This document shows positions 3,523-21,751 of a stretch of 22,166 bases of DNA, one piece after another. This DNA is from a virus. Numbering within the stretch: the first letter of the stretch is position 1; the number at the start of each line of letters is the position of its first letter. The notes beneath the pieces are model-generated. The model was not told the DNA's origin, did not search any database, and worked only from the letters and a program-made list of their open reading frames with translations. The stretch is from positions 1 to 22,166 of the IMG/VR virus record IMGVR_UViG_3300044858_000473; one strand, 5' to 3'. Both the position numbers and the translations under genes were made by a program.

Positions 3523-3692
3523 TTGTCCTCATCCGATTGACTTGCTGTTCCTGCCAAGTGTAATGCAAGAGACAGAATCGTGAAGAACAACGCCCAGTTC
3601 TGAATCGACCCGGACAGGGTCATGATGGTGATGGCGGATGCACCCAGGGTGAAACCCAGGGCGAGCATCTCGTTGCCAATCTTCTTGAACAT
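3519..3692 (-). CDS. Small two-TM membrane protein (57 aa)
   Basis: A 57-aa protein: a short basic start (MFKKIGNEM), a hydrophobic segment (LALGFTLGASAITIMTL), a short polar break (SGSIQN), a second hydrophobic segment (WALFFTILSLALHLAG) and an acidic tail (QSDEDK). The ATG at 3692 shares one base with the stop of the mucin-like gene (TGATG), and the stop overlaps the start of the lipoprotein gene. That tight chain, with clean membrane topology, supports it as real. Its size and hairpin topology suit a small holin or a partner of the lipoprotein. The function is not established by the sequence. Confidence 0.65.
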   Translation of the reverse strand: MFKKIGNEMLALGFTLGASAITIMTLSGSIQNWALFFTILSLALHLAGTASQSDEDK

Positions 3693-5050
3693 CAGTTATT
3701 CCGTCTACGCAGGCTCGCACCAACAGCCACCATTGTAGAAGAAACTGCCACCAGTGTCCTTCGTTCTTCCACAGGAATCGTGGAGCCAACCATCACATAG
3801 GAATCAAACAGCCCGGTGAACACGTTGATGGCCGCCTCGAATGCTTCACGAACTTCCTTCGGTGCTTCTTGCACCGCGTCCACGATTGCTTCACCTTGCT
3901 CGGCAGTCAACTCCTCAACGACGACCGCTTCAAAGATTGCTTCGGCCTGCGCCTCGGTGACAACTGCCAAGACCTCTGAGGTCGTGGCAAGTTGTGTGGC
4001 CTGCTCGGTGGTCGGGGTGGTGGCAAGGATTTGTTCTACGGCTGCGACGATTTGCTCAGGTTCGAGGACGGTGACGTCGGCGAGTAGCTCTTCTACGAAC
4101 TCGTCCACTTCTTCTTCGGTGCTAGTTTCGGGCAATGCTTCTGTCTCTGGCTGCTCTGGTTCTGATGGCTCCGGCAGCGTTGTGGTTGTGGGTGCTGGCT
4201 CGGTGGTTGTTGATTGAGGAGGCACAGTTACAGATGGCAGAGTCGTCTCGGGAACTGGATCAACAAACAGAGTCGTCGTAGTTGATTCGGTAGTTGTTGT
4301 CGGAGGCTCGGTCGTAGTCGTAGTGGTGGAAGTCGTAGTGGTGGAAGTCGTAGTCGTAGGCGGCTCAGTAGTTGTAGTCGTGGTGGTAGCCGGGGCGACG
4401 TAGACGGTCGTGGTTGTCGTGGTCTGCTCGGTGGTGGTGGTTGCAGGCTCAGTCGTGGTCGTCGTAGAAGTGGTGGTGGTTTCTGGAACGGTGGTGCTAG
4501 TCGAAGTGGTGGTGGTTGGTGTTGAGGTTTGGGTGAACGCTTCGTCGGGAACTATTGACCAGCCTGCGTCGTCAATGTTCCAGACAAGCATGATGCAGGA
4601 CGACCCGCCGTGCTCATACATCCACACGTTGAGCGGCTGGATGCCTGCCTCAATCTCTAGTTGACCTGACGGTATCCAGGAGCAGCCTTGGTCGTTCCAT
4701 GATTCAAACTCGTTGCCGCCGATGTCCGCATAGCCACCGTCGTCTGTGGCCAACCAGAACTCAATCGTCGTGTGTTCAGGGATGTTGATGTAGCCAGTCA
4801 TGTGAACCATGAACAAGTCGCCTGTGCAGCTCTCGTATGGTTCGCCGTCGTAACTGCGGTTGATGTTGTTCTCTGTCTCGGTTCCGCAGATCGGATACTC
4901 GCTGGTGGAACGTAGCGGTGGTATCTCGTCGATGGTGTAGTAGGTGGTGGCAAGCCCTGGTTGCGGGTCTGCTTGTGCGGTAGTCGGCCAGAAGGCGAAG
5001 AAGACTGCCGGTGCGAGTATCAGCCAACGAAGGCTGTTAGAGAGGCGCAT
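3692..5050 (-). CDS. Secreted PA14-like protein with a mucin-like Thr/Pro stalk
   Basis: About 452 aa. A signal peptide covers residues 1-27 (MRLSNSLRWLILAPAVFFAF, ending AQA/DP). Residues 28-170 hold a Cys- and Trp-containing beta-rich domain whose ATDDGGYADIGG motif (about 101-112) is typical of PA14 carbohydrate-binding domains. Residues 173-291 are a Thr/Pro/Glu stalk with long Thr runs. An acidic section and two helical Glu/Ala/Val-rich stretches (about 310-425) follow, then a weakly hydrophobic end and RRRNN. The layout is that of an exported adhesin, and Thr-rich stalks of this kind resemble exported Acidimicrobiia proteins. The frame is open from a TTG at 5056; the ATG at 5050 is preferred but GAGG abuts it, so the start is uncertain. 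It follows the fibre genes, so it could be a host-surface protein made during infection or an unusual virion adhesin. Host origin is inferred. Confidence 0.75.
   Translation of the reverse strand: MRLSNSLRWLILAPAVFFAFWPTTAQADPQPGLATTYYTIDEIPPLRSTSEYPICGTETENNINRSYDGEPYESCTGDLFMVHMTGYINIPEHTTIEFWLATDDGGYADIGGNEFESWNDQGCSWIPSGQLEIEAGIQPLNVWMYEHGGSSCIMLVWNIDDAGWSIVPDEAFTQTSTPTTTTSTSTTVPETTTTSTTTTTEPATTTTEQTTTTTTVYVAPATTTTTTTEPPTTTTSTTTTSTTTTTTEPPTTTTESTTTTLFVDPVPETTLPSVTVPPQSTTTEPAPTTTTLPEPSEPEQPETEALPETSTEEEVDEFVEELLADVTVLEPEQIVAAVEQILATTPTTEQATQLATTSEVLAVVTEAQAEAIFEAVVVEELTAEQGEAIVDAVQEAPKEVREAFEAAINVFTGLFDSYVMVGSTIPVEERRTLVAVSSTMVAVGASLRRRNN
4178..4534 (-). repeat. Low-complexity Thr-codon repeat tract
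   Basis: This part of the PA14/mucin-like gene consists largely of ACT/ACC/ACG/ACA codons broken by Pro-Glu pairs, giving irregular repeats of EPPTTTT and TSTTTT type. On the plus strand it appears as GTAGTCGTAGTGGTGGAA-like repeats. The tract is imperfect, which fits a protein-level repeat under selection. Slippage-driven length variation between strains is likely. Confidence 0.8.
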
Positions 5051-5237
5051 CCTCAACTACTGGTGGTGCGCTGAACGTGTCGGTGTCTGCGTCGTAGATC
5101 CAGCCGATGGCAACGGTCAAAGGTTCTGGGCCGAGGTCGTGCCAGTCACCGTCAAGATTTGCTGTCGCCCATTCGTAGTCGCCAACGATGATGGCTTCAA
5201 CGATGTTGTTCGCTAGTTGTGCGACGTAGTTCTTCAC
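5037..5237 (-). CDS. Small protein coupled to the tail fibre, possible fibre accessory
   Basis: A 66-aa protein starting with GTG, which overlaps the stop of the fibre gene (GTGA). The sequence runs VAQLANNIVEAIIVGDYEWA, then VAIGWIYDADTDTFSAPP. Short proteins with this layout, a V...NNxV..xIVG..EWA opening and an IGW.YD....F..PP ending, are common directly after phage fibre genes and often appear as a C-terminal domain of fibre or fibre-assembly proteins. A chaperone or a small tip subunit for the glycine-rich fibre is the likeliest role, by position and resemblance. The end overlaps the start of the secreted PA14-like gene by 14 bases. Confidence 0.6.
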   Translation of the reverse strand: MKNYVAQLANNIVEAIIVGDYEWATANLDGDWHDLGPEPLTVAIGWIYDADTDTFSAPPVVEDAPL

Positions 5238-6428: not shown

Positions 6429-7043
6429 TTATCCTAGCCCAACCTCAGCGTCGTCAAGTTCGCTGGTGTCCAAGATGAACAAGCCAAACAGGTCCGCTGG
6501 TGAACATTGCAAAATGACCGTGTGATTTGATGGGGTTATCTTGTGGTCGATACCCTCCACGAACAAGTCCTCCACCACCGGGTTAGCCACATTCGGGAAC
6601 CGCTTGGACACCCGTATCTGGTCACCAATCTCCAACACCGCGACCAAATCACGTTGGGCTTCGCTGATGCCGTTCATAGAAATCTCAATGTTGCTGAACC
6701 AATACTGCGGCAGTTCCCGCACCAGATACCCGGCAAGGTCTTGGGCGAAGCTGACACCAGTTTCGGGGTTCGTCGAGTTGTCCAGAATCGTCACCAGTTG
6801 CGCCGACGTCTCACCGAACGTGGACACCGAAGTTGCCGAAGTTGCGGTGACTGCTTGCAAATCGGTCGTCGTCGGAGCCGACACCGCGGCCGTATCCGCA
6901 ACAACAACTTGCACATTGTTGACCACACCCTGATCCAATGTGAGTTTCTGTCCGAACGACTGATTGTTCTGCTGAGCCAACCCAGCCAGCAACAAATCAA
7001 AATCATCCGCAGGAATCAAGTCAGACGTGAAGACGACACTCAT
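6429..7043 (-). CDS. Minor tail protein, C-terminal half of a hub-like protein
   Basis: A 204-aa protein whose ATG overlaps the stop of the preceding minor tail gene (ATGA). Residues 85-195 hold the recognisable part: LVRELPQYWFSNIEISMNGI, then VLEIGDQIRVSKRFP and VEGIDHKITPSNHTVILQCS. This matches the C-terminal half of siphophage minor tail/baseplate hub proteins, where an L-E-I-G-D turn and a VEGI.H.ITP strand are typical. The protein ends with LDTSELDDAEVGLG, a motif also found in two other proteins of this window. Residues 1-80 are Thr/Ser/Ala-rich and less distinctive. In related phages I would expect one longer protein, so this and the upstream gene may be a split pair acting together at the tail tip. 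Confidence 0.7.
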   Translation of the reverse strand: MSVVFTSDLIPADDFDLLLAGLAQQNNQSFGQKLTLDQGVVNNVQVVVADTAAVSAPTTTDLQAVTATSATSVSTFGETSAQLVTILDNSTNPETGVSFAQDLAGYLVRELPQYWFSNIEISMNGISEAQRDLVAVLEIGDQIRVSKRFPNVANPVVEDLFVEGIDHKITPSNHTVILQCSPADLFGLFILDTSELDDAEVGLG

Positions 7044-7828
7044 CGGTAAATCACCTCAAAACTACGGAACGGAATCTCACCATCACCAACATCGGAGAAC
7101 TCTGCGATGATGTCCTGAAACTCACGACCAGTACGAGCCTGAGCCACCAAGACTCCCGCCCGGCTGATAAAGATGCGACCCTGCTCAGCGGTCTGAATGC
7201 GATCAAAATACTCCGACACCTTCACACCCGCCTCAACCGCCTGGGCACCCAACTTGGCAACACCAACCTCAATGTCCCGTTCACCCGGCAACACGAACAA
7301 CTGCACCTCGGCACGGTCCAAGATGGCTTCGATACGTTCACTCGACAACTCAGCCGTGGGCACATGACGGTCAATCGACACCTTCTCCAACACCTTCAAA
7401 TCATCCACCGCGGTCACCGTCACATACGACTTGTTATCCAACGTGATCTGCTGGTTGTACGACTGAATCTGCCCCACGAACAGCTCCTCACCGTCACGAG
7501 TCACCTTCACCCGCTTCGTCGGAGTGAAACCGAGACGGTCTTCGTCCACGTCCCAATACGGTGACGCAGGATTCACCACCGAGAAATCGCCCTGAACATC
7601 GTCAATCGTGATGGTGCAACGCCCAGAGTCAATCGGTTGACGAAACTCGCTACGACCCCGAGCAATGGACACAGCCAACACATACTCAGTCACATCAAAA
7701 AACTCGGTTGACCCGTCAAGCGTGTCCAATCCATCAAGCGTTGAACTGTCCAACTTGAACTCGTCCGTGGTGAACCCAGCATCCAGGAACACGCCATAGT
7801 TGCCGAAGTTGAGCAGGTTCTTTGACAT
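7040..7828 (-). CDS. Minor tail protein, N-terminal half of a hub-like protein (distal tail region)
   Basis: A 262-aa protein directly after the tape measure gene; its ATG shares one base with the tape measure stop (TAATG). Residues 24-39 hold FKLDSSTLDGLDTLDG, a motif repeated elsewhere in this window. The body is beta-rich: SIARGRSEFRQPIDSGRCTI, VVNPASPYWD, then KRVKVTRDGEELFVGQIQSY and YVTVTAVDDLKVLEK, followed by helices and AQARTGREFQDIIAEFSDVG. That order (ARGR...AGRCT, then a VxVxRDGxxLFVGQI strand pair) is typical of actinobacteriophage minor tail proteins at the tail tip. The protein ends abruptly at FRSFEVIYR, where longer homologues would be expected to continue; the next gene supplies that continuation. 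Confidence 0.7.
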   Translation of the reverse strand: MSKNLLNFGNYGVFLDAGFTTDEFKLDSSTLDGLDTLDGSTEFFDVTEYVLAVSIARGRSEFRQPIDSGRCTITIDDVQGDFSVVNPASPYWDVDEDRLGFTPTKRVKVTRDGEELFVGQIQSYNQQITLDNKSYVTVTAVDDLKVLEKVSIDRHVPTAELSSERIEAILDRAEVQLFVLPGERDIEVGVAKLGAQAVEAGVKVSEYFDRIQTAEQGRIFISRAGVLVAQARTGREFQDIIAEFSDVGDGEIPFRSFEVIYR

Positions 7829-10191
7829 TAGAGAATCTGTACGTTGAGTGGGCCTTGATTGCGATTGTAGGTACGCAACGCATCAACCAGTTTCTCAGGC
7901 AAATCCGCATCAGCAACAGTCGAATTGACGTTGATGACCACCTGTTCGGACATCATGCGTTGCCCGTCGCCGCCGTTGAACCCTCCACCGGCTGGTGGCG
8001 TGGGGACGATGGGCACCAGGTCAGGTGAACCGATACGGGCTGCAACCTTCGGGAAGTTGAGAATGGCTGTCGCCAACAAATCCAACTCCTTGCGATACTC
8101 CGCAACCGCTTCAGTCTCCGCTTCCAAAGCCTCCGTGTTGCGCTCATGAGCCCTCGTCTGAGCCTCCTGAGCATCAGTAACAGCCTTCTGCAACGGCACC
8201 AGCTCTGCGTCACCTTGACGCAACCCGTCGGTGGCGATACGTAAATCGCGTTGAGCAGCCTCCAACTTGCGGGTGCTATCAATCTGATCATCTTCCTGGT
8301 CAACGACACGCAACTTCGCCTCAGCCAAAGCAATCTCAGCCTCACGAATGTCTTGCGCTGTTGACCCAGCATCGGCACGAACCTCAGCCAGTTTCCGTTC
8401 AGCGTCACGAACCGCAAAGATTGACTGCTCCTGCGCAAACTTCGAGCGAGTCAACCCACGCTCAGCCGCAGCTACCGCCCGTTGAGCGTCAGCAATCTCA
8501 CCCGGCGACCCAGCACCTTGCGCTTCAAGCAACGCCTGCTGGGCTGCAGCCAAATCTTCGTTCGCTTTCGTCAACGACTTCTGGGTGTCACGCACATTTC
8601 GTTGCGCACGACTGTACGAATCTGACGCACCTTGCGCCGACTTCAACACAGCCGTGTATGCCTCCAACGGTTTGATGGCCTCAGCCGTAGCCCGCGACGA
8701 CCCACCAGTCTTTTTGGCTGTGTCGCCAAGCAAAGCGTTCAACACGGACTGGGCAGCCGACTGGTCTTTGAGGGCCTGATTCAACACTTCAATGGATGTG
8801 CCACCCTTCAACGCTTGGGCACGCAACTGGTTCACCCGATCGGTTTCTTTCGCCAGTTTCGCTTCAGCCTGGGCAACAGACACCAACCCTGTTTCAAGGT
8901 TCGCAGCAGCCAAACGTCGAGCAGCCATGTCTGATGCGTCAGCAATCCCTCTGATTGCTCCAGCCGCCTTATCTGCACCGACCTTGATACGGTCGAACGA
9001 TACTTCCCCAATGGTCGCTGTCTTCGGCAAGCTGATACCTACAAATCGGACAACGTCACCAACGACATTGCCCCATTGAATAAACGAGTTGATGACCCCA
9101 ATGACTGCGTTGACGAGCAACTCAAACCCTGCGATTGCAATGTTGATGAGGGTTGCCAGAACTTTGCGGAACCCTTCGGACTTCATCGCAGCCAACACCA
9201 ACGCACTCACCAACAAACCGATGACCACAACGATTGCCCCGATACCAGTTGCCGAAAGGGCAACACCGAACAAGGTCAGTTTCGCTGCCGCCAAAGCTGC
9301 CGCTATTGCCATCACCTTCAACGCAATCGACATCGCCACAATCGCCCCGGTGACAGCCGCAAACCCTGCACCCAACGCAACCATGACTTCAGAGTTACGT
9401 GCAGCGAAATCGGCAAACTTTCCGAGTGCAGCCACAATCGCCTCAAACGCTGGCAAGAGTGCCGTACCGATGTTGGTGCGCACATCATCAAAACTGTTCC
9501 GCAACGCCACCATGCGACCCTCAGCGGTCTCACGAGCAGCCTCATTGAACCCGCCATACGTTGAGGACAAGACGTCGACGATGGCAGCGGCACGCTCGGC
9601 CTCTGTCCCGTTGCTGATCAACGCCTTCGTGTTGTCGTCAAGTACGAACCCTGCTCGGGTCAACGCACCGAACTGGCCGTTCAACGCCTGAGCCAAGCCG
9701 TTGGTCATTGACTTGAAATCTTCCCCAGTGGCCGTCGCACCCTTTTCAGCGATGACATAGTCAACAATCGCTGGCGTCAACTTCTCTATGGTCTCAAACT
9801 GCAAATCAAACGTGGCAAGTTGTGCTTGCGCCACCGTAATGTTCCCAGCCGACGCAACACCAACCTGTTGCAAAGCATCAGCCTGGGCAAGCAAAGCATC
9901 AACCTGCTCATCGGTTGCCGCCCCAGTGGTGAGAAGTATTTGACGGAGACGTTCCTGTTCAGCCTGAGCTTGCACGGCTGCGCTAATCGACAACCCTGCG
10001 GCCGCCGTGATACCTGCAAACGCAATAGCCGAAGCAGCCTGCACCTTGCCGAACACTGGGACAAGTTCTTGGAGTTTTGTTTGTGATTCCCCGAACGCTT
10101 CACCGGCAGCACCACGAACTTGTTGGAAGCCTGCGATCAACTGCCGAGGGTCGGCAATAAGTTTGACTAAGAATGAACGCTCAACGGCCAT
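7828..10191 (-). CDS. Tape measure protein
   Basis: 787 aa if started at the ATG at 10191 (a TTG at 10200 is also in frame; neither has a clear Shine-Dalgarno). It is the longest gene of the window, in the expected place between the chaperone region and the tail-tip genes. The N-terminal third is helical with QALNGQFGALTRAGFVLDD, a conserved-looking block in phage tape measures. About residues 265-340 are strongly hydrophobic (several possible membrane-spanning segments). About 450-720 are Ala/Glu/Gln/Arg-rich coiled coil with repeated RAQRNVRDTQKSL-like heptads. A Pro/Gly-rich tail follows. Tape measures set tail length and pass into or through the host membrane; at about 0.15 nm per residue this predicts a tail near 118 nm. 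No peptidase or lysozyme domain is visible in it. Confidence 0.9.
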   Translation of the reverse strand: MAVERSFLVKLIADPRQLIAGFQQVRGAAGEAFGESQTKLQELVPVFGKVQAASAIAFAGITAAAGLSISAAVQAQAEQERLRQILLTTGAATDEQVDALLAQADALQQVGVASAGNITVAQAQLATFDLQFETIEKLTPAIVDYVIAEKGATATGEDFKSMTNGLAQALNGQFGALTRAGFVLDDNTKALISNGTEAERAAAIVDVLSSTYGGFNEAARETAEGRMVALRNSFDDVRTNIGTALLPAFEAIVAALGKFADFAARNSEVMVALGAGFAAVTGAIVAMSIALKVMAIAAALAAAKLTLFGVALSATGIGAIVVVIGLLVSALVLAAMKSEGFRKVLATLINIAIAGFELLVNAVIGVINSFIQWGNVVGDVVRFVGISLPKTATIGEVSFDRIKVGADKAAGAIRGIADASDMAARRLAAANLETGLVSVAQAEAKLAKETDRVNQLRAQALKGGTSIEVLNQALKDQSAAQSVLNALLGDTAKKTGGSSRATAEAIKPLEAYTAVLKSAQGASDSYSRAQRNVRDTQKSLTKANEDLAAAQQALLEAQGAGSPGEIADAQRAVAAAERGLTRSKFAQEQSIFAVRDAERKLAEVRADAGSTAQDIREAEIALAEAKLRVVDQEDDQIDSTRKLEAAQRDLRIATDGLRQGDAELVPLQKAVTDAQEAQTRAHERNTEALEAETEAVAEYRKELDLLATAILNFPKVAARIGSPDLVPIVPTPPAGGGFNGGDGQRMMSEQVVINVNSTVADADLPEKLVDALRTYNRNQGPLNVQIL

Positions 10192-10206
10192 GAGCGGCAA
10201 TTCTAC

Positions 10207-13599: not shown

Positions 13600-14286
13600 C
13601 TACTCAATCCAGTCCTTGCGTCGGGCAACACCAATGCCGAAGAACGAACCATTGACCGATTCATACTGTTCAACGAACTCCCAGAAATCGTGCGTCTGGG
13701 AATACTTATCACGATGCTCCAACCAATACTGTCGAACCGCTGGACACGAATCCGACGAGATGTCATGGAACACCTGGATGTTGCAATGCCCCACCGTGGC
13801 CTCGGCATCATCCTTCACACCTTCATACGAATGATCGCCATCGACGAACACGACATCAAAGAACTGGTCGCCGACCCAAGCCTTGAAACTATCCAACCTC
13901 GTGTCCTCTTGCCGATACTCAAACTCGGTGAGCATCGGCGGCTGGTCAATCAAATCCACCGCTATTGCCCGCACGAACCCAGGGTTCATACGACGCAACG
14001 TCTCGGCCTGCACGACGAACGTCCCACCATGCCGAGTTCCTATCTCTAGGTAAGACCGAACCATTGACGCCGTTGACGCAAGCCACGCCATGTACGGGGC
14101 GAACTGGCATGGGTACTGCCAAATCCGCAAACCTAATCCAGGGCTATTCAACATCAGTTCTGGCAACTCCTCCGGATTCTCGTCGTTGAAACCGAACTCC
14201 GCCAACAACTTTTCCCACACCTCAACCCGACACAACGCCTCTGCACTTGACGTCTCCAATCGCTCTCGCACCAACTCAACAGACAT
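13600..14286 (-). CDS. SAM-dependent methyltransferase of the glycan cassette
   Basis: A 228-aa class I methyltransferase. YLEIGTRHGGTF (about 79-90) is the SAM-binding glycine-rich loop; VDLIDQ and later VVFVDGDHSYEGVKDD (about 145-160) match the CmcI/Methyltransf_24 group, which often methylates sugar or peptide hydroxyls; HD at 174-175 adds likely metal or active-site residues. The ATG at 14286 is preferred over the TTG at 14289 because AAGGAG lies exactly 7 bases upstream. It overlaps the third glycosyltransferase gene by 11 bases, so it belongs to the same cassette. The substrate is probably a sugar added by the neighbouring transferases, although this is inferred from order only. Confidence 0.8.
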   Translation of the reverse strand: MSVELVRERLETSSAEALCRVEVWEKLLAEFGFNDENPEELPELMLNSPGLGLRIWQYPCQFAPYMAWLASTASMVRSYLEIGTRHGGTFVVQAETLRRMNPGFVRAIAVDLIDQPPMLTEFEYRQEDTRLDSFKAWVGDQFFDVVFVDGDHSYEGVKDDAEATVGHCNIQVFHDISSDSCPAVRQYWLEHRDKYSQTHDFWEFVEQYESVNGSFFGIGVARRKDWIE

Positions 14287-15127
14287 CAAGCAACTCCTTC
14301 ACCTCACGCTCAAACACCGAACGATTCTTCGCCACCCAACCTTGATACACAAGTTGCGAAGCAGAAGGACTCTCACGATCCATCAACTCAGCCACCTTCC
14401 CAATCACCTCATCCAACGTCTCAAACTTGTACCAGTTTGACAACGGCATGTCTTCCCAGTAGGTGGCCGACCCGATGTATGTCGACATCACAAGACACCC
14501 GGCCAACGCCGCCTCACGAGGCAAACGGTCCCGCCCCGGATGCTTACCGAAATCCACATACACCTTCGAAGCGTGCAACACCTCCGACACTCCAAGACTG
14601 TCCATGCCACCCAACTCGGCAACTTGGAACCGACCCGACTGCACGAACGGTCGCAGCAACCCAGCATCCTTCGCAGGGTTCACCACTACCTGCGGCTGCC
14701 TCTCACGCAACACAGGTTGCACCGACACCCAATCGGTCAACATCATCCGCTTGCCCTTGTCACGGACATGGTCCCAGGCGTACTCAGATTGGCAGAGATG
14801 CAACGAAATCTTGTCGAGGTTCCGTTGTCCATGGGTGCCGAAGTTGCCGACGCTCAGCCACCACAACGCGCAACGGTTCTTGAACGTGCTCGCCATCTCA
14901 GGCCAAATCTCAGGCAACACGACCAACGCATCCTCGGGCACCTGGTCTCGGAGAATCTTCGGGCAGACATAATGCTGATAGGGCTGCGGAGTTGTGTGCG
15001 GTGCGAACGGCCAATAGAGGATGGCAGCCGATCCACGCTCAACATGGTTCGCGGTGTGCACCAACTGGTGCATCGCCTCAGGCCCACCAGTCACAGCATT
15101 CGCCGGGCACACCACCACCAGTTTCAA
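14276..15127 (-). CDS. Glycosyltransferase, GT-B-like
   Basis: A 283-aa protein. From the TTG at 15127, which overlaps the GT2 stop in a TTGA arrangement, the peptide reads MKLVVVCPANAVTGGPEAMH, the usual start of this group; a longer frame to 15163 would only add a non-homologous extension inside the GT2 gene. A central section contains YVCPKILRDQ and CQSEYAWDHV. The C-terminal part has VDFGKHPGRDRLPREAALAG, a nucleotide-sugar domain signature of phage and bacterial GT-B transferases in which DFGxHPGxDRxPREAA takes the place of the E-x7-E motif. The donor sugar cannot be told from sequence. It overlaps the methyltransferase gene by 11 bases. Confidence 0.75.
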   Translation of the reverse strand: MKLVVVCPANAVTGGPEAMHQLVHTANHVERGSAAILYWPFAPHTTPQPYQHYVCPKILRDQVPEDALVVLPEIWPEMASTFKNRCALWWLSVGNFGTHGQRNLDKISLHLCQSEYAWDHVRDKGKRMMLTDWVSVQPVLRERQPQVVVNPAKDAGLLRPFVQSGRFQVAELGGMDSLGVSEVLHASKVYVDFGKHPGRDRLPREAALAGCLVMSTYIGSATYWEDMPLSNWYKFETLDEVIGKVAELMDRESPSASQLVYQGWVAKNRSVFEREVKELLDVC

Positions 15128-15774
15128 TCCCACCCCAACTCCAATCGTCGGTTCAAATCCCAATCCAACGGCAGGTCTGCAATCATCCGTTGCTCGAACA
15201 GCCGTCGGTTCGCATCAAAGGTTGCTTGGTTGCGCATCTGGAACTTTGCGTTTGATTGCAGGGTGCTGGAGTTGCGGTGGTTGATGGCAGCCGAAGAACG
15301 GTGAATGTCCACACCTTTGCGTTGGGCTCGCACCTCGTAGTCGTTGTCCTCAAAATACGCAGGATGGTAGCCCTCGTGGAACAGTCCGACCTGCTGCACC
15401 ACTTGTGAACCCAACCAGAAACACGACCACGGTGGCTTGCCACCCAACACCAGATTCGTTGACGACGCCTGGGCAAAGAAGTCGGCGACACCGTTGAGGC
15501 CGAACCCGACATCATGGTTGACGATCATCCACCCGGTGGACTTGCAGGTTGCTTTGATACCAAGATTCCAAGATGCTGCAACACCGAGATTGGTTGGCAT
15601 CCGATAGTGGAAGATGCGTTGCGCCTTCGTGGTGTGTGGCTCCCATGTCGGATGGTTGCCGTTGTCGATGACGACCAGGTCAATGATGCGCCCATCAAAC
15701 GACGTCAGCATCGAATCCACTCGCTCATGCTCGGTCAAGACCGGCACGATTACGACTGGGACAAGCGGCACCAT
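15124..15774 (-). CDS. Glycosyltransferase family 2-like (GT-A)
   Basis: A 216-aa GT-A enzyme. An N-terminal strand (VVIVPVLTEHERVDSML) leads to LVVIDNGN at 33-40, NLGVAASWNLGI at 62-73, and a D-x-D-like NHDVGF at 86-91 that would bind metal and the nucleotide sugar. AYFEDNDYEVRAQRKG (139-154) provides the acidic catalytic-base region (E142, D143). These are the ordered features of GT2 inverting transferases, in a short form without membrane segments. The start at 15774 has GGAG about 9 bases upstream and overlaps the GT4 gene by 25 bases. It probably extends the glycan begun by one of the neighbouring enzymes. Confidence 0.85.
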   Translation of the reverse strand: MVPLVPVVIVPVLTEHERVDSMLTSFDGRIIDLVVIDNGNHPTWEPHTTKAQRIFHYRMPTNLGVAASWNLGIKATCKSTGWMIVNHDVGFGLNGVADFFAQASSTNLVLGGKPPWSCFWLGSQVVQQVGLFHEGYHPAYFEDNDYEVRAQRKGVDIHRSSAAINHRNSSTLQSNAKFQMRNQATFDANRRLFEQRMIADLPLDWDLNRRLELGWD

Positions 15775-17051
15775 TCTGCAATCTCCTTCATCGCTGGCTT
15801 CCAGTAGGTCTCATAGACGTGGTCGGCTTCGTACTGTTTGGCGAAGTCAATCGCCTTCTGCGAACGGCCACGGCCACGGGCATACGCCTGCTCGAGTCCG
15901 TTGAGGATGCTGGGCACCGACGGGGTCAAGAACCATGAGGCTTGGGCTGGGTCCCAATACGGTTGCCCGTCTGCTATCCAACCGTCACCACACAGCTCAG
16001 GTTGCGCTGTGAAGCGTGAAACCACCACAGGCGTCCCACACGCCTGGGCTTCCACCACAGGGATGCCAAAGCCCTCTCCCATGCTCGCAGCCAGATACAC
16101 GTCTGCGGCCGTGTAGAGGGCTGCCATAGCGTTCTGAGGCAAGCCCATCCGGTAGGTGTACGGATCGCAGTAACGGATGCGAGACTCGTCAATGCCACAC
16201 ATGTGAGCCAACAACTTCAAGTCAATGCCACCCATGGAGGCCGACTGCTCGGTGTGCATGTAGAGCACCGCATCGTCATGTTTCTGGGCAAACATGCTGA
16301 ACGCCATGAAGTTCTCAGCGAACGCCTTGCGGGGAGGATGCGCACCTTTGTTCACGCTCGTCATCATCACAACGAACTTGTCTTCTGAGAAGCCCATGAT
16401 GTCTCGCCCGGTGATGACCTTGCCGTGGTTGTCTTTGATGTGGGCAGTCGGTTTGAACACCGACTCGATACCGTGCGGCACGTAGACGTTGCGAATCCCA
16501 AAGTTGTTCAGTTGCTCATGCCCGAACTTGGACATTGAAATCGGCATCACATTCGGACGTTGACACCAGGCTGCGACATCCGGTGGGCAAGGCTGATGGT
16601 CAATCGGAACCCACGACGCAATGTTGGGAACCTTCTCCAAACTTGGAGACTTCAACACCCAGACATCAAACAATGTCATCAACAGTTTCGGCAGGTTTGA
16701 ACCTTGTGTCCAATCCATCCAGTGTGCAGCGACGATGTCGTCGCTGTATGCGTTCATTCCTCGCGGATAGATTTTGATTCCGTTCCACGTTGACGTGGAC
16801 GCTTCGAGGCCGTAGATGGAGTGGATTGCGATTTCGTGCCCGTCTTGGATGAGCCTTTTCGTGGCTTGCTGGGTTTGCTGACCGTAGCCTGTTCCTGCCC
16901 ATGGGGCGTTGGAATACCAGAGTGCTCGGACTGCGTCCGGGGATCTACGACTGACTCCTCTGGCAAGTGAGCTACGCCCCGCTGCAAGAGCAGGATCGCC
17001 TCCGGGCCCGGTAAGTCCAATGGGACTCCCTTGATGATTACTCGCATTCAC
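15750..17051 (-). CDS. Glycosyltransferase family 4-like (GT-B); start of frame doubtful
   Basis: A 433-residue frame. From residue 42 it is a clear GT4 transferase: RALWYSNAPWAGTGYGQQT (42-60) is the acceptor-side glycine loop, SVNKGAHPPRK (232-242) the typical donor-side opening, and GEGFGIPVVEAQACGTPVV (325-343) carries the E-x7-E pair E326 and E334. It would retain stereochemistry and transfer a sugar from a nucleotide donor. Residues 1-40 are Gly/Pro/Ser-rich, have low GC at third codon positions (about 39% by hand count) and do not resemble the family. The only in-frame start before the GT domain is a GTG at 17051. Over the same bases the frame from the ATG at 17047 codes better, so the true protein probably crosses from that frame near 16939. 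The catalytic call is firm; the N-terminus is not. Confidence 0.85.
   Translation of the reverse strand: MNASNHQGSPIGLTGPGGDPALAAGRSSLARGVSRRSPDAVRALWYSNAPWAGTGYGQQTQQATKRLIQDGHEIAIHSIYGLEASTSTWNGIKIYPRGMNAYSDDIVAAHWMDWTQGSNLPKLLMTLFDVWVLKSPSLEKVPNIASWVPIDHQPCPPDVAAWCQRPNVMPISMSKFGHEQLNNFGIRNVYVPHGIESVFKPTAHIKDNHGKVITGRDIMGFSEDKFVVMMTSVNKGAHPPRKAFAENFMAFSMFAQKHDDAVLYMHTEQSASMGGIDLKLLAHMCGIDESRIRYCDPYTYRMGLPQNAMAALYTAADVYLAASMGEGFGIPVVEAQACGTPVVVSRFTAQPELCGDGWIADGQPYWDPAQASWFLTPSVPSILNGLEQAYARGRGRSQKAIDFAKQYEADHVYETYWKPAMKEIAEWCRLSQS
16754..17047 (-). CDS. Overlapping frame whose first ~36 codons look real (N-terminal part of the GT4 gene or a small protein)
   Basis: The ATG at 17047 has AAGGAG 9 bases upstream. 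It begins MRVIIKGVPLDLPGPEAILL, continues LQRGVAHLPEESVVDP, and reads like a small folded domain similar in pattern to the 57-aa protein at 12377..12550. GC at third codon positions over these 36 codons is about 69% by hand count, like the genes around it, against about 39% for the competing GT4 frame. Past the bases near 16939 the picture reverses: this frame becomes Ser/Lys/Thr-rich junk and the GT4 frame becomes clearly coding. The simplest reading is one protein joined by a -1 shift at GATCCCCGG, either programmed or from an indel. A separate small gene is the alternative. Confidence 0.45.
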   Translation of the reverse strand: MRVIIKGVPLDLPGPEAILLLQRGVAHLPEESVVDPRTQSEHSGIPTPHGQEQATVSKPSKPRKGSSKTGTKSQSTPSTASKRPRQRGTESKSIREE

Positions 17052-20604: not shown

Positions 20605-21357
20605 TCAGAGCATCAACATTACTTGCAAGTCGTCATCCTCGGCAGAGAATGTGATAGACCCCACAGCCGACGCCGACAGTCCGACGAAGATCGGGGCAAG
20701 ATACGCCTCCACCACATTCGGCGCAACCTCAACGATGATGTCCTCAACGATGACAACTTCTTCAATCTTTTTCTTCTTTGGTCTTGGGTATCGGTACGGT
20801 TCGCCACCGCCACCCGCATCAGGCTGAGGTTGCGGAGTAACCGTTCCCACCGCAGTAGCAACCATCGGACCAAGCTCGGCAGTCATCGAGCCGAACGGTG
20901 TCACCGACCCGGTGGCCGCAGCAGTCAAACCACCCAGCGACGACTGGGCAGAAGCAGGGTGTGTCACCGTGCCAGTTGCGCTCGATGTCGCCGCTCCGAG
21001 GCTGGCAGATGCCGATGCGATGATTGTGACGACACCTACCGCAGCAGCAGTCAACCCACCTAACGCAGCCGAAGCGTCACCATCAACCTGAATCTCAACC
21101 CCGCTGACCTCAGCGAACAACTCACCCAGCGACGCTTGCGCTGTGGCAGTCACGACCGGCACGACCGTGCCAGTTGCCGTTGCCGTCAAACCACCCAGGG
21201 CACCAGCGGCCGTGGCCGTGGTCGTGAACGTGAAGCCGTCTAGTTTGCCGTCACCGTCAAGCGTTGAGGTATCGAGAACGAACGCAGGTGACGGACCGTC
21301 AAGGCCGACGTCAGCGTCGTCAAGTTCTGAGGTGTTGAGTATGAACCGTGTTGTCAC
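20605..21357 (-). CDS. Repeat-rich virion protein with LDTS/LDG motifs
   Basis: A 250-aa protein starting at GTG (21357), which has only a weak TAGG site. Residues 6-41 contain two copies of an F-x-LxTSxLDxxxxLDG motif (ILNTSELDDADVGLDG and VLDTSTLDGDGKLDG). Residues 49-175 are about six imperfect repeats of roughly 20-25 residues built on SLGGLTAAATGxVTP, suggesting a beta-repeat rod. A Gly/Pro spacer, a basic RPKKKK patch, a hydrophobic/acidic EEVVIVEDIIVEV stretch and a last repeat-like part close the protein. The same LDTS motif occurs at the start of one minor tail protein and the end of another. Its position between portal and protease suggests a head fibre or decoration; attachment to the tail is also possible. 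Confidence 0.55.
   Translation of the reverse strand: MTTRFILNTSELDDADVGLDGPSPAFVLDTSTLDGDGKLDGFTFTTTATAAGALGGLTATATGTVVPVVTATAQASLGELFAEVSGVEIQVDGDASAALGGLTAAAVGVVTIIASASASLGAATSSATGTVTHPASAQSSLGGLTAAATGSVTPFGSMTAELGPMVATAVGTVTPQPQPDAGGGGEPYRYPRPKKKKIEEVVIVEDIIVEVAPNVVEAYLAPIFVGLSASAVGSITFSAEDDDLQVMLML
20833..21213 (-). repeat. Imperfect protein-level repeats (SLGGLTA...TGTV units)
   Basis: About six units starting near residues 52, 76, 96, 117, 138 and 159 of the 250-aa protein, each centred on LGGLTAxAxG and followed by VxVT-like strands. DNA identity between units is partial (CACCCAGCGA/GGCA and GCAGTCAAACCACC recur), so the copies are old or under protein-level constraint. Confidence 0.7.
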
Positions 21358-21367
21358 GGTTGCCTAC

Positions 21368-21751
21368 TTAGGAAGCGACGGTCAGCGAGACAGTGAGCGC
21401 ACCCGACGAAATCGTGAACGTGTCGCCTGCCGTGTAAGCGTTCGCAGTTACCGTTCCAGAGAACAAGAAGTTTCCTGCTGAGACGTTGTCCCATGCTGAG
21501 AAGAATGTTGCGTCTTGCGAACCGGCGATGTTCGTCCAGGTAAGTGCGGCATCAGATGTGAGCGTGCCCGCCGATGCTGCGGAGAACGACGCTTCCTTGC
21601 GAGTGGTTTCCGTTGCCGCGTTTGCGGTTGCCGCTGCACCTGGATCACCAACATGAAGTTTTACATACACGGCCGCGACAGCGAAAGTGTCATTGTTGCC
21701 CAAAGCATCAAGCCATTGGTCGGCCAAGTAGGAGCTGATACCCGTTGCCAT
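21368..21751 (-). CDS. Small virion/tail-fibre-family protein
   Basis: A 127-aa beta-rich protein. It opens SYLADQWLDALGNNDTFAVA, then VYVKLHVGDPGAAATAN and TRKEASFSAASAGTLTSDA; the end has ATFFSAWDNVSAGNFLFSGT and YTAGDTFTISSGALTVSL. The pattern LD.LGN....A..YVKLHxGDPG...NA..., then FSAWD...GNFLFSG.L... and GDTFTI is a well-known phage protein family, often labelled a tail fibre or head-associated protein. The ATG at 21751 shares one base with the portal stop (TAATG). Placement in the head module favours a decoration or neck fibre. Confidence 0.7.
   Translation of the reverse strand: MATGISSYLADQWLDALGNNDTFAVAAVYVKLHVGDPGAAATANAATETTRKEASFSAASAGTLTSDAALTWTNIAGSQDATFFSAWDNVSAGNFLFSGTVTANAYTAGDTFTISSGALTVSLTVAS

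Follow-up and report, generated by a model that had tools for sequence, protein, structure and literature searches.

The window analysed here, that is, the whole 22,166-base virus record, in which most of the genes lie on the minus strand, raises the question of why one short peptide should recur in virion proteins encoded far apart, in the tail module and in the head module. An earlier note had attributed a single common motif to three such proteins. All four copies were confirmed at the places given for them, and they are indeed related. A and B, the two classes into which they fall, have the core F-x-LD-x-S-x-LD in common and are distinct sub-motifs of 16 residues each. Motif A (FILDTSELDDADVGLG) comprises the first copy in a 250-aa protein (residues 5-20, FILNTSELDDADVGLD, 21298..21345, minus strand) and the end of a 204-aa protein (FILDTSELDDAEVGLG, 6432..6479, minus strand), where it does stand at the very end of the chain, as its last 16 residues and not 14 as had been proposed. 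Motif B (FxLDSSTLDGxDVLDG) comprises the second copy in the 250-aa protein (residues 26-41, FVLDTSTLDGDGKLDG, 21235..21282, minus strand), which carries A and then B in tandem, and residues 24-39 of a 262-aa protein (FKLDSSTLDGLDTLDG, 7712..7759, minus strand). The back-translated B pattern found two matches in the window and none in 100 shuffles.

The 262-aa and 204-aa proteins, previously counted as two minor tail proteins, are the halves of one gp27-type tail hub, which reduces the carriers of the motif from three proteins to two families. The two hub ORFs (6429-7828) overlap by 4 bases in different frames, and the near-identical copies of their products in the relative G006 match positions 3-263 (N-terminal part, 7040..7828, minus strand) and 277-418 (C-terminal part, 6429..7043, minus strand) of the unsplit hub. 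In L039-L042 and many more relatives, which are metagenomic fragments, the hub is one ORF of ~417 aa, in which B lies close to the N-terminus and A forms the final 16 residues. A sequencing slip is an unlikely cause of the split, because L043, a contig from another sample, has an identical 262-aa protein and the same division, the hub being one ORF elsewhere. The 204-aa half also has an N-terminal extension of its own, of roughly 40 residues. In the tail module, the hub follows the tape measure gene (7828-10200). The AlphaFold model, a monomer built from 45 sequences for the unsplit relative L042 and not for the split hub of the window, has the gp27/gp44-type hub fold, with Foldseek E down to 5e-17 and VIA-align Z of about 19-24 (maximum 24.2) to T4 gp27, Mu gp44 and the phi812 and MC58 hubs. 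Since this fold spans residues about 6-398, the C-terminal motif A is an extension beyond it. Among known phage records, the hub matched only phiPsal1 and Microcystis phage Mae-JY09. The phiPsal1 protein annotated as 'putative tail fiber' (AUV61428.1; L061:14044-15231) is a gp27-type hub relative and probably misannotated.

The other carrier is the 250-aa virion protein (20605..21357, minus strand), which is rope-like: its N-terminal A and B are accompanied by six repeats of ~21 residues (ASASLGGLTATATGTVT..., 20830..21210, minus strand; repeat sequence ASLGGLTATATGTVT...), a basic PRPKKKK stretch and a conserved acidic and hydrophobic C-terminus, whose tail EDDDLQVMLML (20608..20640, minus strand) is the only predicted helix in its model. 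This model is poor throughout (mean pLDDT 39.5) and is uninformative on fold or disorder. Neither the 250-aa nor the 204-aa protein found a match among known phage records. Within the family of the 250-aa protein, 12 of the 14 invariant columns lie in the first 41 residues, the region of A and B, and the number of repeats differs among relatives. The longest relative (L070:1-1566) exceeds 520 aa, is open at its 5′ end and has about 20 repeats. The upstream neighbour of the gene (21368..21751, minus strand) encodes a gp80-like protein, a probable bead subunit, which matches Pfam PF23140 (E 1.6e-21) and the chain 8jou_a (phmmer E 2.3e-6); PDB 8JOU is fibre I of the Ralstonia podophage GP4, with gp80 dimers on a rope protein. 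In every relative examined, the gene of the repeat protein lies in the head module beside the gp80-like gene, and the latter stands upstream wherever the upstream flank is covered; in L199 the two genes are about 0.8 kb apart. From this pairing with gp80 and from the repeats, both of which were observed, together with the gene order in the Burkholderia phage BcepMigl and in mycobacteriophages and the reported make-up of GP4 fibre I, we read the 250-aa protein as the probable rope on which the beads of a fibre are strung.

The correspondence between rope and hub respects the division into A and B. Without prompting, the rope profile aligned its A positions with the hub C-terminus and its B positions with the N-terminal hub copy in 40 long relatives, in most of which it matched the hub motif copies with E of about 1e-3 to 6e-7 per record. 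An iterated rope profile drifted into the hubs through the common motif, and its rope counts were left out. The mean identity across genomes (permutation means) was 0.63 between rope A and the hub C-terminus and 0.69 between rope B and the N-terminal hub copy, compared with 0.43-0.50 for the remaining pairings, a contrast that may be somewhat inflated by the extraction of the copies with regexes, a weakness of which the profile search is free.

At the DNA level, the 16 bases that had been noted as common to 6445..6460 and 21311..21326 (both TCAGCGTCGTCAAGTT, plus strand) are exactly identical, and the complement encodes ELDDA at both places, ELDDA(D/E) being encoded in both genes. This sequence has four matches at up to three mismatches, with 0.38 expected, and no shuffle reached four. 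The identity exists because the peptide is common to both genes, and a function of the repeat at the DNA level was rejected, codon identity being hardly raised. The exact match would also be expected if the segment had been copied by recent gene duplication or gene conversion without any common function, an explanation that we consider very unlikely. Codon identity at shared residues was 0.44-0.48 within genomes and 0.40-0.41 between them (P 0.02-0.09), so that a small excess is possible, with no clear sign in this comparison of recent gene conversion; moreover, the A and B classes stay separate across divergent relatives, and the motifs are kept while rope relatives fall to 33-60% identity overall. 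The duplicated module suggested in the earlier note is possible only as a distant origin and not as a recent duplication, since synonymous identity within a genome barely exceeds that between genomes. Agreement of the motifs within a genome was likewise not clearly above that between genomes (P about 0.1), which does not demonstrate co-evolution.

The motif was found to be confined to these two families wherever it was sought. DNA-pattern scans covered 2.9 million viral contigs, and among the matches listed the B pattern fell in at least 112 distinct ORFs, at least 65 of them hubs and at least 46 ropes as assigned by profiles built without the motif, together with one fragment of 81 aa that reads as a rope N-terminus. 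The A pattern gave 21 stretches (nine hub and 12 rope), and hub and rope were the sole families among the pattern-scan matches listed. When 1017 genes from 41 sequence pieces (about 38 contigs) were scanned with a 9-column matrix, 105 matches lay above the threshold of 14 bits, 66 in hubs and 39 in ropes, against about one in shuffled proteins. No third class of protein with the motif was detected among the 1017 genes of about 40 relatives or in the scan matches listed, and a literature search found no description of the motif. The search across related phages that had been proposed for this locus found the motif present in the relatives of both proteins.

How the hub displays its two copies can be judged from the model of L042. 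Its mean pLDDT is 84, falling below 50 only at residues 22-26, 28-40, 398-408 and 413-416, segments that coincide with motif B (22-40) and motif A (398-416), although a low pLDDT does not by itself prove disorder. Motif B is modelled in an insert after the first strand of the hub, and motif A as a C-terminal tail. Among the 400 16-residue windows of the hub, that of motif B (24-39) ranked first for conservation, while the C-terminal copy of motif A was of average conservation (rank about 173). A segment such as hub motif B, conserved yet predicted to be unstructured in isolation, has the typical appearance of a docking peptide that folds on binding. The features of a short docking motif, namely shortness, conservation and a location outside folded domains, were found together in the hub, and in the rope as far as conservation is concerned. 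On balance, we favour the reading that both motifs are short docking peptides of the SLiM type and that the fibre rope borrows the attachment peptides of the hub. The common docking tag put forward in the earlier note is in this respect the best-supported reading, given the conservation, the disorder predicted in the hub, and the occurrence of the same sub-motifs in two virion families.

The pattern of conservation bears on two other functions. The motif could serve phage-encoded glycosyltransferases (genes within 14276-17051) as a recognition sequence, the conserved Ser/Thr of exposed floppy segments being the residues modified; most copies have the Ser/Thr pair, and glycosyltransferase homologues occur in 30 of 39 records as well as in phiPsal1 and Mae-JY09, two phages with hub relatives. 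We regard this as improbable, however, because several hub copies (LDQD, LDTN) and the long variant LDDxxFGVLD lack the Ser, whereas F, L and D are retained, and conservation is dominated by the hydrophobic and Asp positions. The motif could also be a small metal-binding segment used independently in the two proteins. RTX nonapeptides have a calcium-binding pattern of the GxDxLxG type, which the GTDVLDG of hub B resembles; nevertheless, in rope B the position at which RTX requires Asp is occupied by G or R (GNGVLDG, GTRVLDG), tandem nonapeptides are lacking and the pattern is absent from motif A, which makes this origin extremely unlikely. As for the surrounding genes, glycosyltransferase-like and methyltransferase-like genes lie between the capsid and tail genes of the window (13600-17051), and the glycosyltransferase homologues of phiPsal1 occupy the same place. 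The 454-aa product of another gene (3692-5056) combines a signal-like stretch at its N-terminus with an extended Thr-rich (TTTT) region and has homologues in 21 of 39 records.

Regarding ancestry, the hub motif is probably older than the rope. The hub relatives of phiPsal1, Mae-JY09 and the contigs G007, G011 and G032 have some form of the N-terminal motif, and no rope or gp80-like gene was detected in these five, the sequence upstream of the protease gene extending for only a few kilobases in G011 and G007. The hub C-termini of the five have a longer variant or no clear motif. The short form of hub motif A was present in 16 of the 17 cases with a rope and in none of the four without one, a comparison that is uncorrected for shared descent and in which one of the four is only partly covered. 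In L183, a rope with short motifs coexists with a hub that has the longer variant at both ends.

This association of short hub A with the rope would also suit an arrangement in which motif A binds motif B of the neighbouring hub subunit, and in which the A-B tandem of the rope inserts into or caps that contact, an assembly that would locate the fibre at the tail tip. In its favour, a single A and a single B are found in most hubs and in most ropes, and the hub copies stand at opposite ends of the chain, whereas the rope joins them in tandem. Against such pairing, A and B have the same F-x-LD-x-S-x-LD core, a likeness that does not point to complementary halves, the ropes of L185 and L199 keep only A, and both motifs are unstructured in the hub model, which is a monomer only. 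For these reasons, we hold direct A-to-B binding to be unlikely.

Under the preferred reading of docking peptides, the mechanism that we infer, from binding and the identity of the partner to bead threading and the position of the fibre, would be as follows. The hub would present B in a floppy insert and A as a floppy C-terminal tail, and each motif would become ordered upon binding a virion partner. The rope, with its 21-aa repeats, would probably string gp80-like beads together as a bead-chain fibre. Its N-terminal tandem of A and B would mount this fibre at the binding site that receives the floppy segments of the hub, or at one of the same type, so that a single ring or bead protein could accept the tags of either hub or rope. 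Candidate partners are the hub itself, a tail-ring protein and the gp80-like bead. A more specific and rather doubtful version is a two-letter docking code, in which the hub ring would display A and B by turns and the head-module rope would repeat them side by side, so that the bead-chain fibre is mounted by copied hub tags. The transfer of the 250-aa protein from the head to the tail tip, which the earlier note had drawn from the motif, is possible, but the gene belongs to the head module, and a position at the neck is just as consistent with the gene order and with GP4. It is usually assumed that head-encoded and tail-encoded virion proteins are recruited through unrelated contacts; if the docking reading is true, a tag common to hub and rope would be a simple rule for the exchange of flexible fibres between phages and for their mounting. 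The motif would also offer a sequence handle with which to find bead-chain fibres in metagenomic phages, as well as a binding motif that is small and open to test.

Compared with known systems, the hub shares with those of T4, Mu, phi812 and the MC58 prophage the same fold over residues about 6-398, and differs from them in the A tail beyond the fold, in the B motif placed in an insert predicted to be disordered, and in the splitting of the gene. Short linear docking motifs such as the cargo-loading peptides of encapsulins, in which a floppy peptide is reused on different proteins to reach one site on a shell, offer an analogy only: the likeness lies in a short floppy peptide carried by different proteins. 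Fibre I of GP4 was reportedly described by Zheng et al. in 2023 as gp80 dimers strung on a rope protein, and the gp80 fibre is said to be located at the head vertex or neck. As in GP4, a gp80-like bead gene adjoins that of a repeat protein of similar size in the window, the difference being that the 250-aa protein, compared with solved structures, has no sequence match to any chain. BcepMigl (gp56-gp57) shows the same order, its gp80 homologue preceding a similarly sized repeat protein. In mycobacteriophages, the gp80-like genes are located in tail operons and come immediately behind the gene of a minor tail protein that has repeats and ends in a Gly-rich stretch. Some records annotate these mycobacteriophage genes (L217:11001-11384, L218:10998-11378, L219:11001-11384) as 'head protein'. 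No counterpart of the hub-like A and B tags was found in the bead-rope phages JoeDirt, Megabear, phiGD20-1 and BcepMigl. The idea that ropes as a rule take over peptides of other virion proteins was rejected, no such sharing being found in these four. In the Anabaena myophage A-1(L), the bead-chain neck fibre (gp80-gp81-gp82) consists of trimers joined head to tail and is anchored by a folded domain, gp82N, rather than by peptide motifs (PMC10966104). The numbering of A-1(L) gp80 is unrelated to that of GP4 gp80, and the likeness, compared by description, is that of a bead-chain appendage that is assembled separately and attached to the virion at one end.
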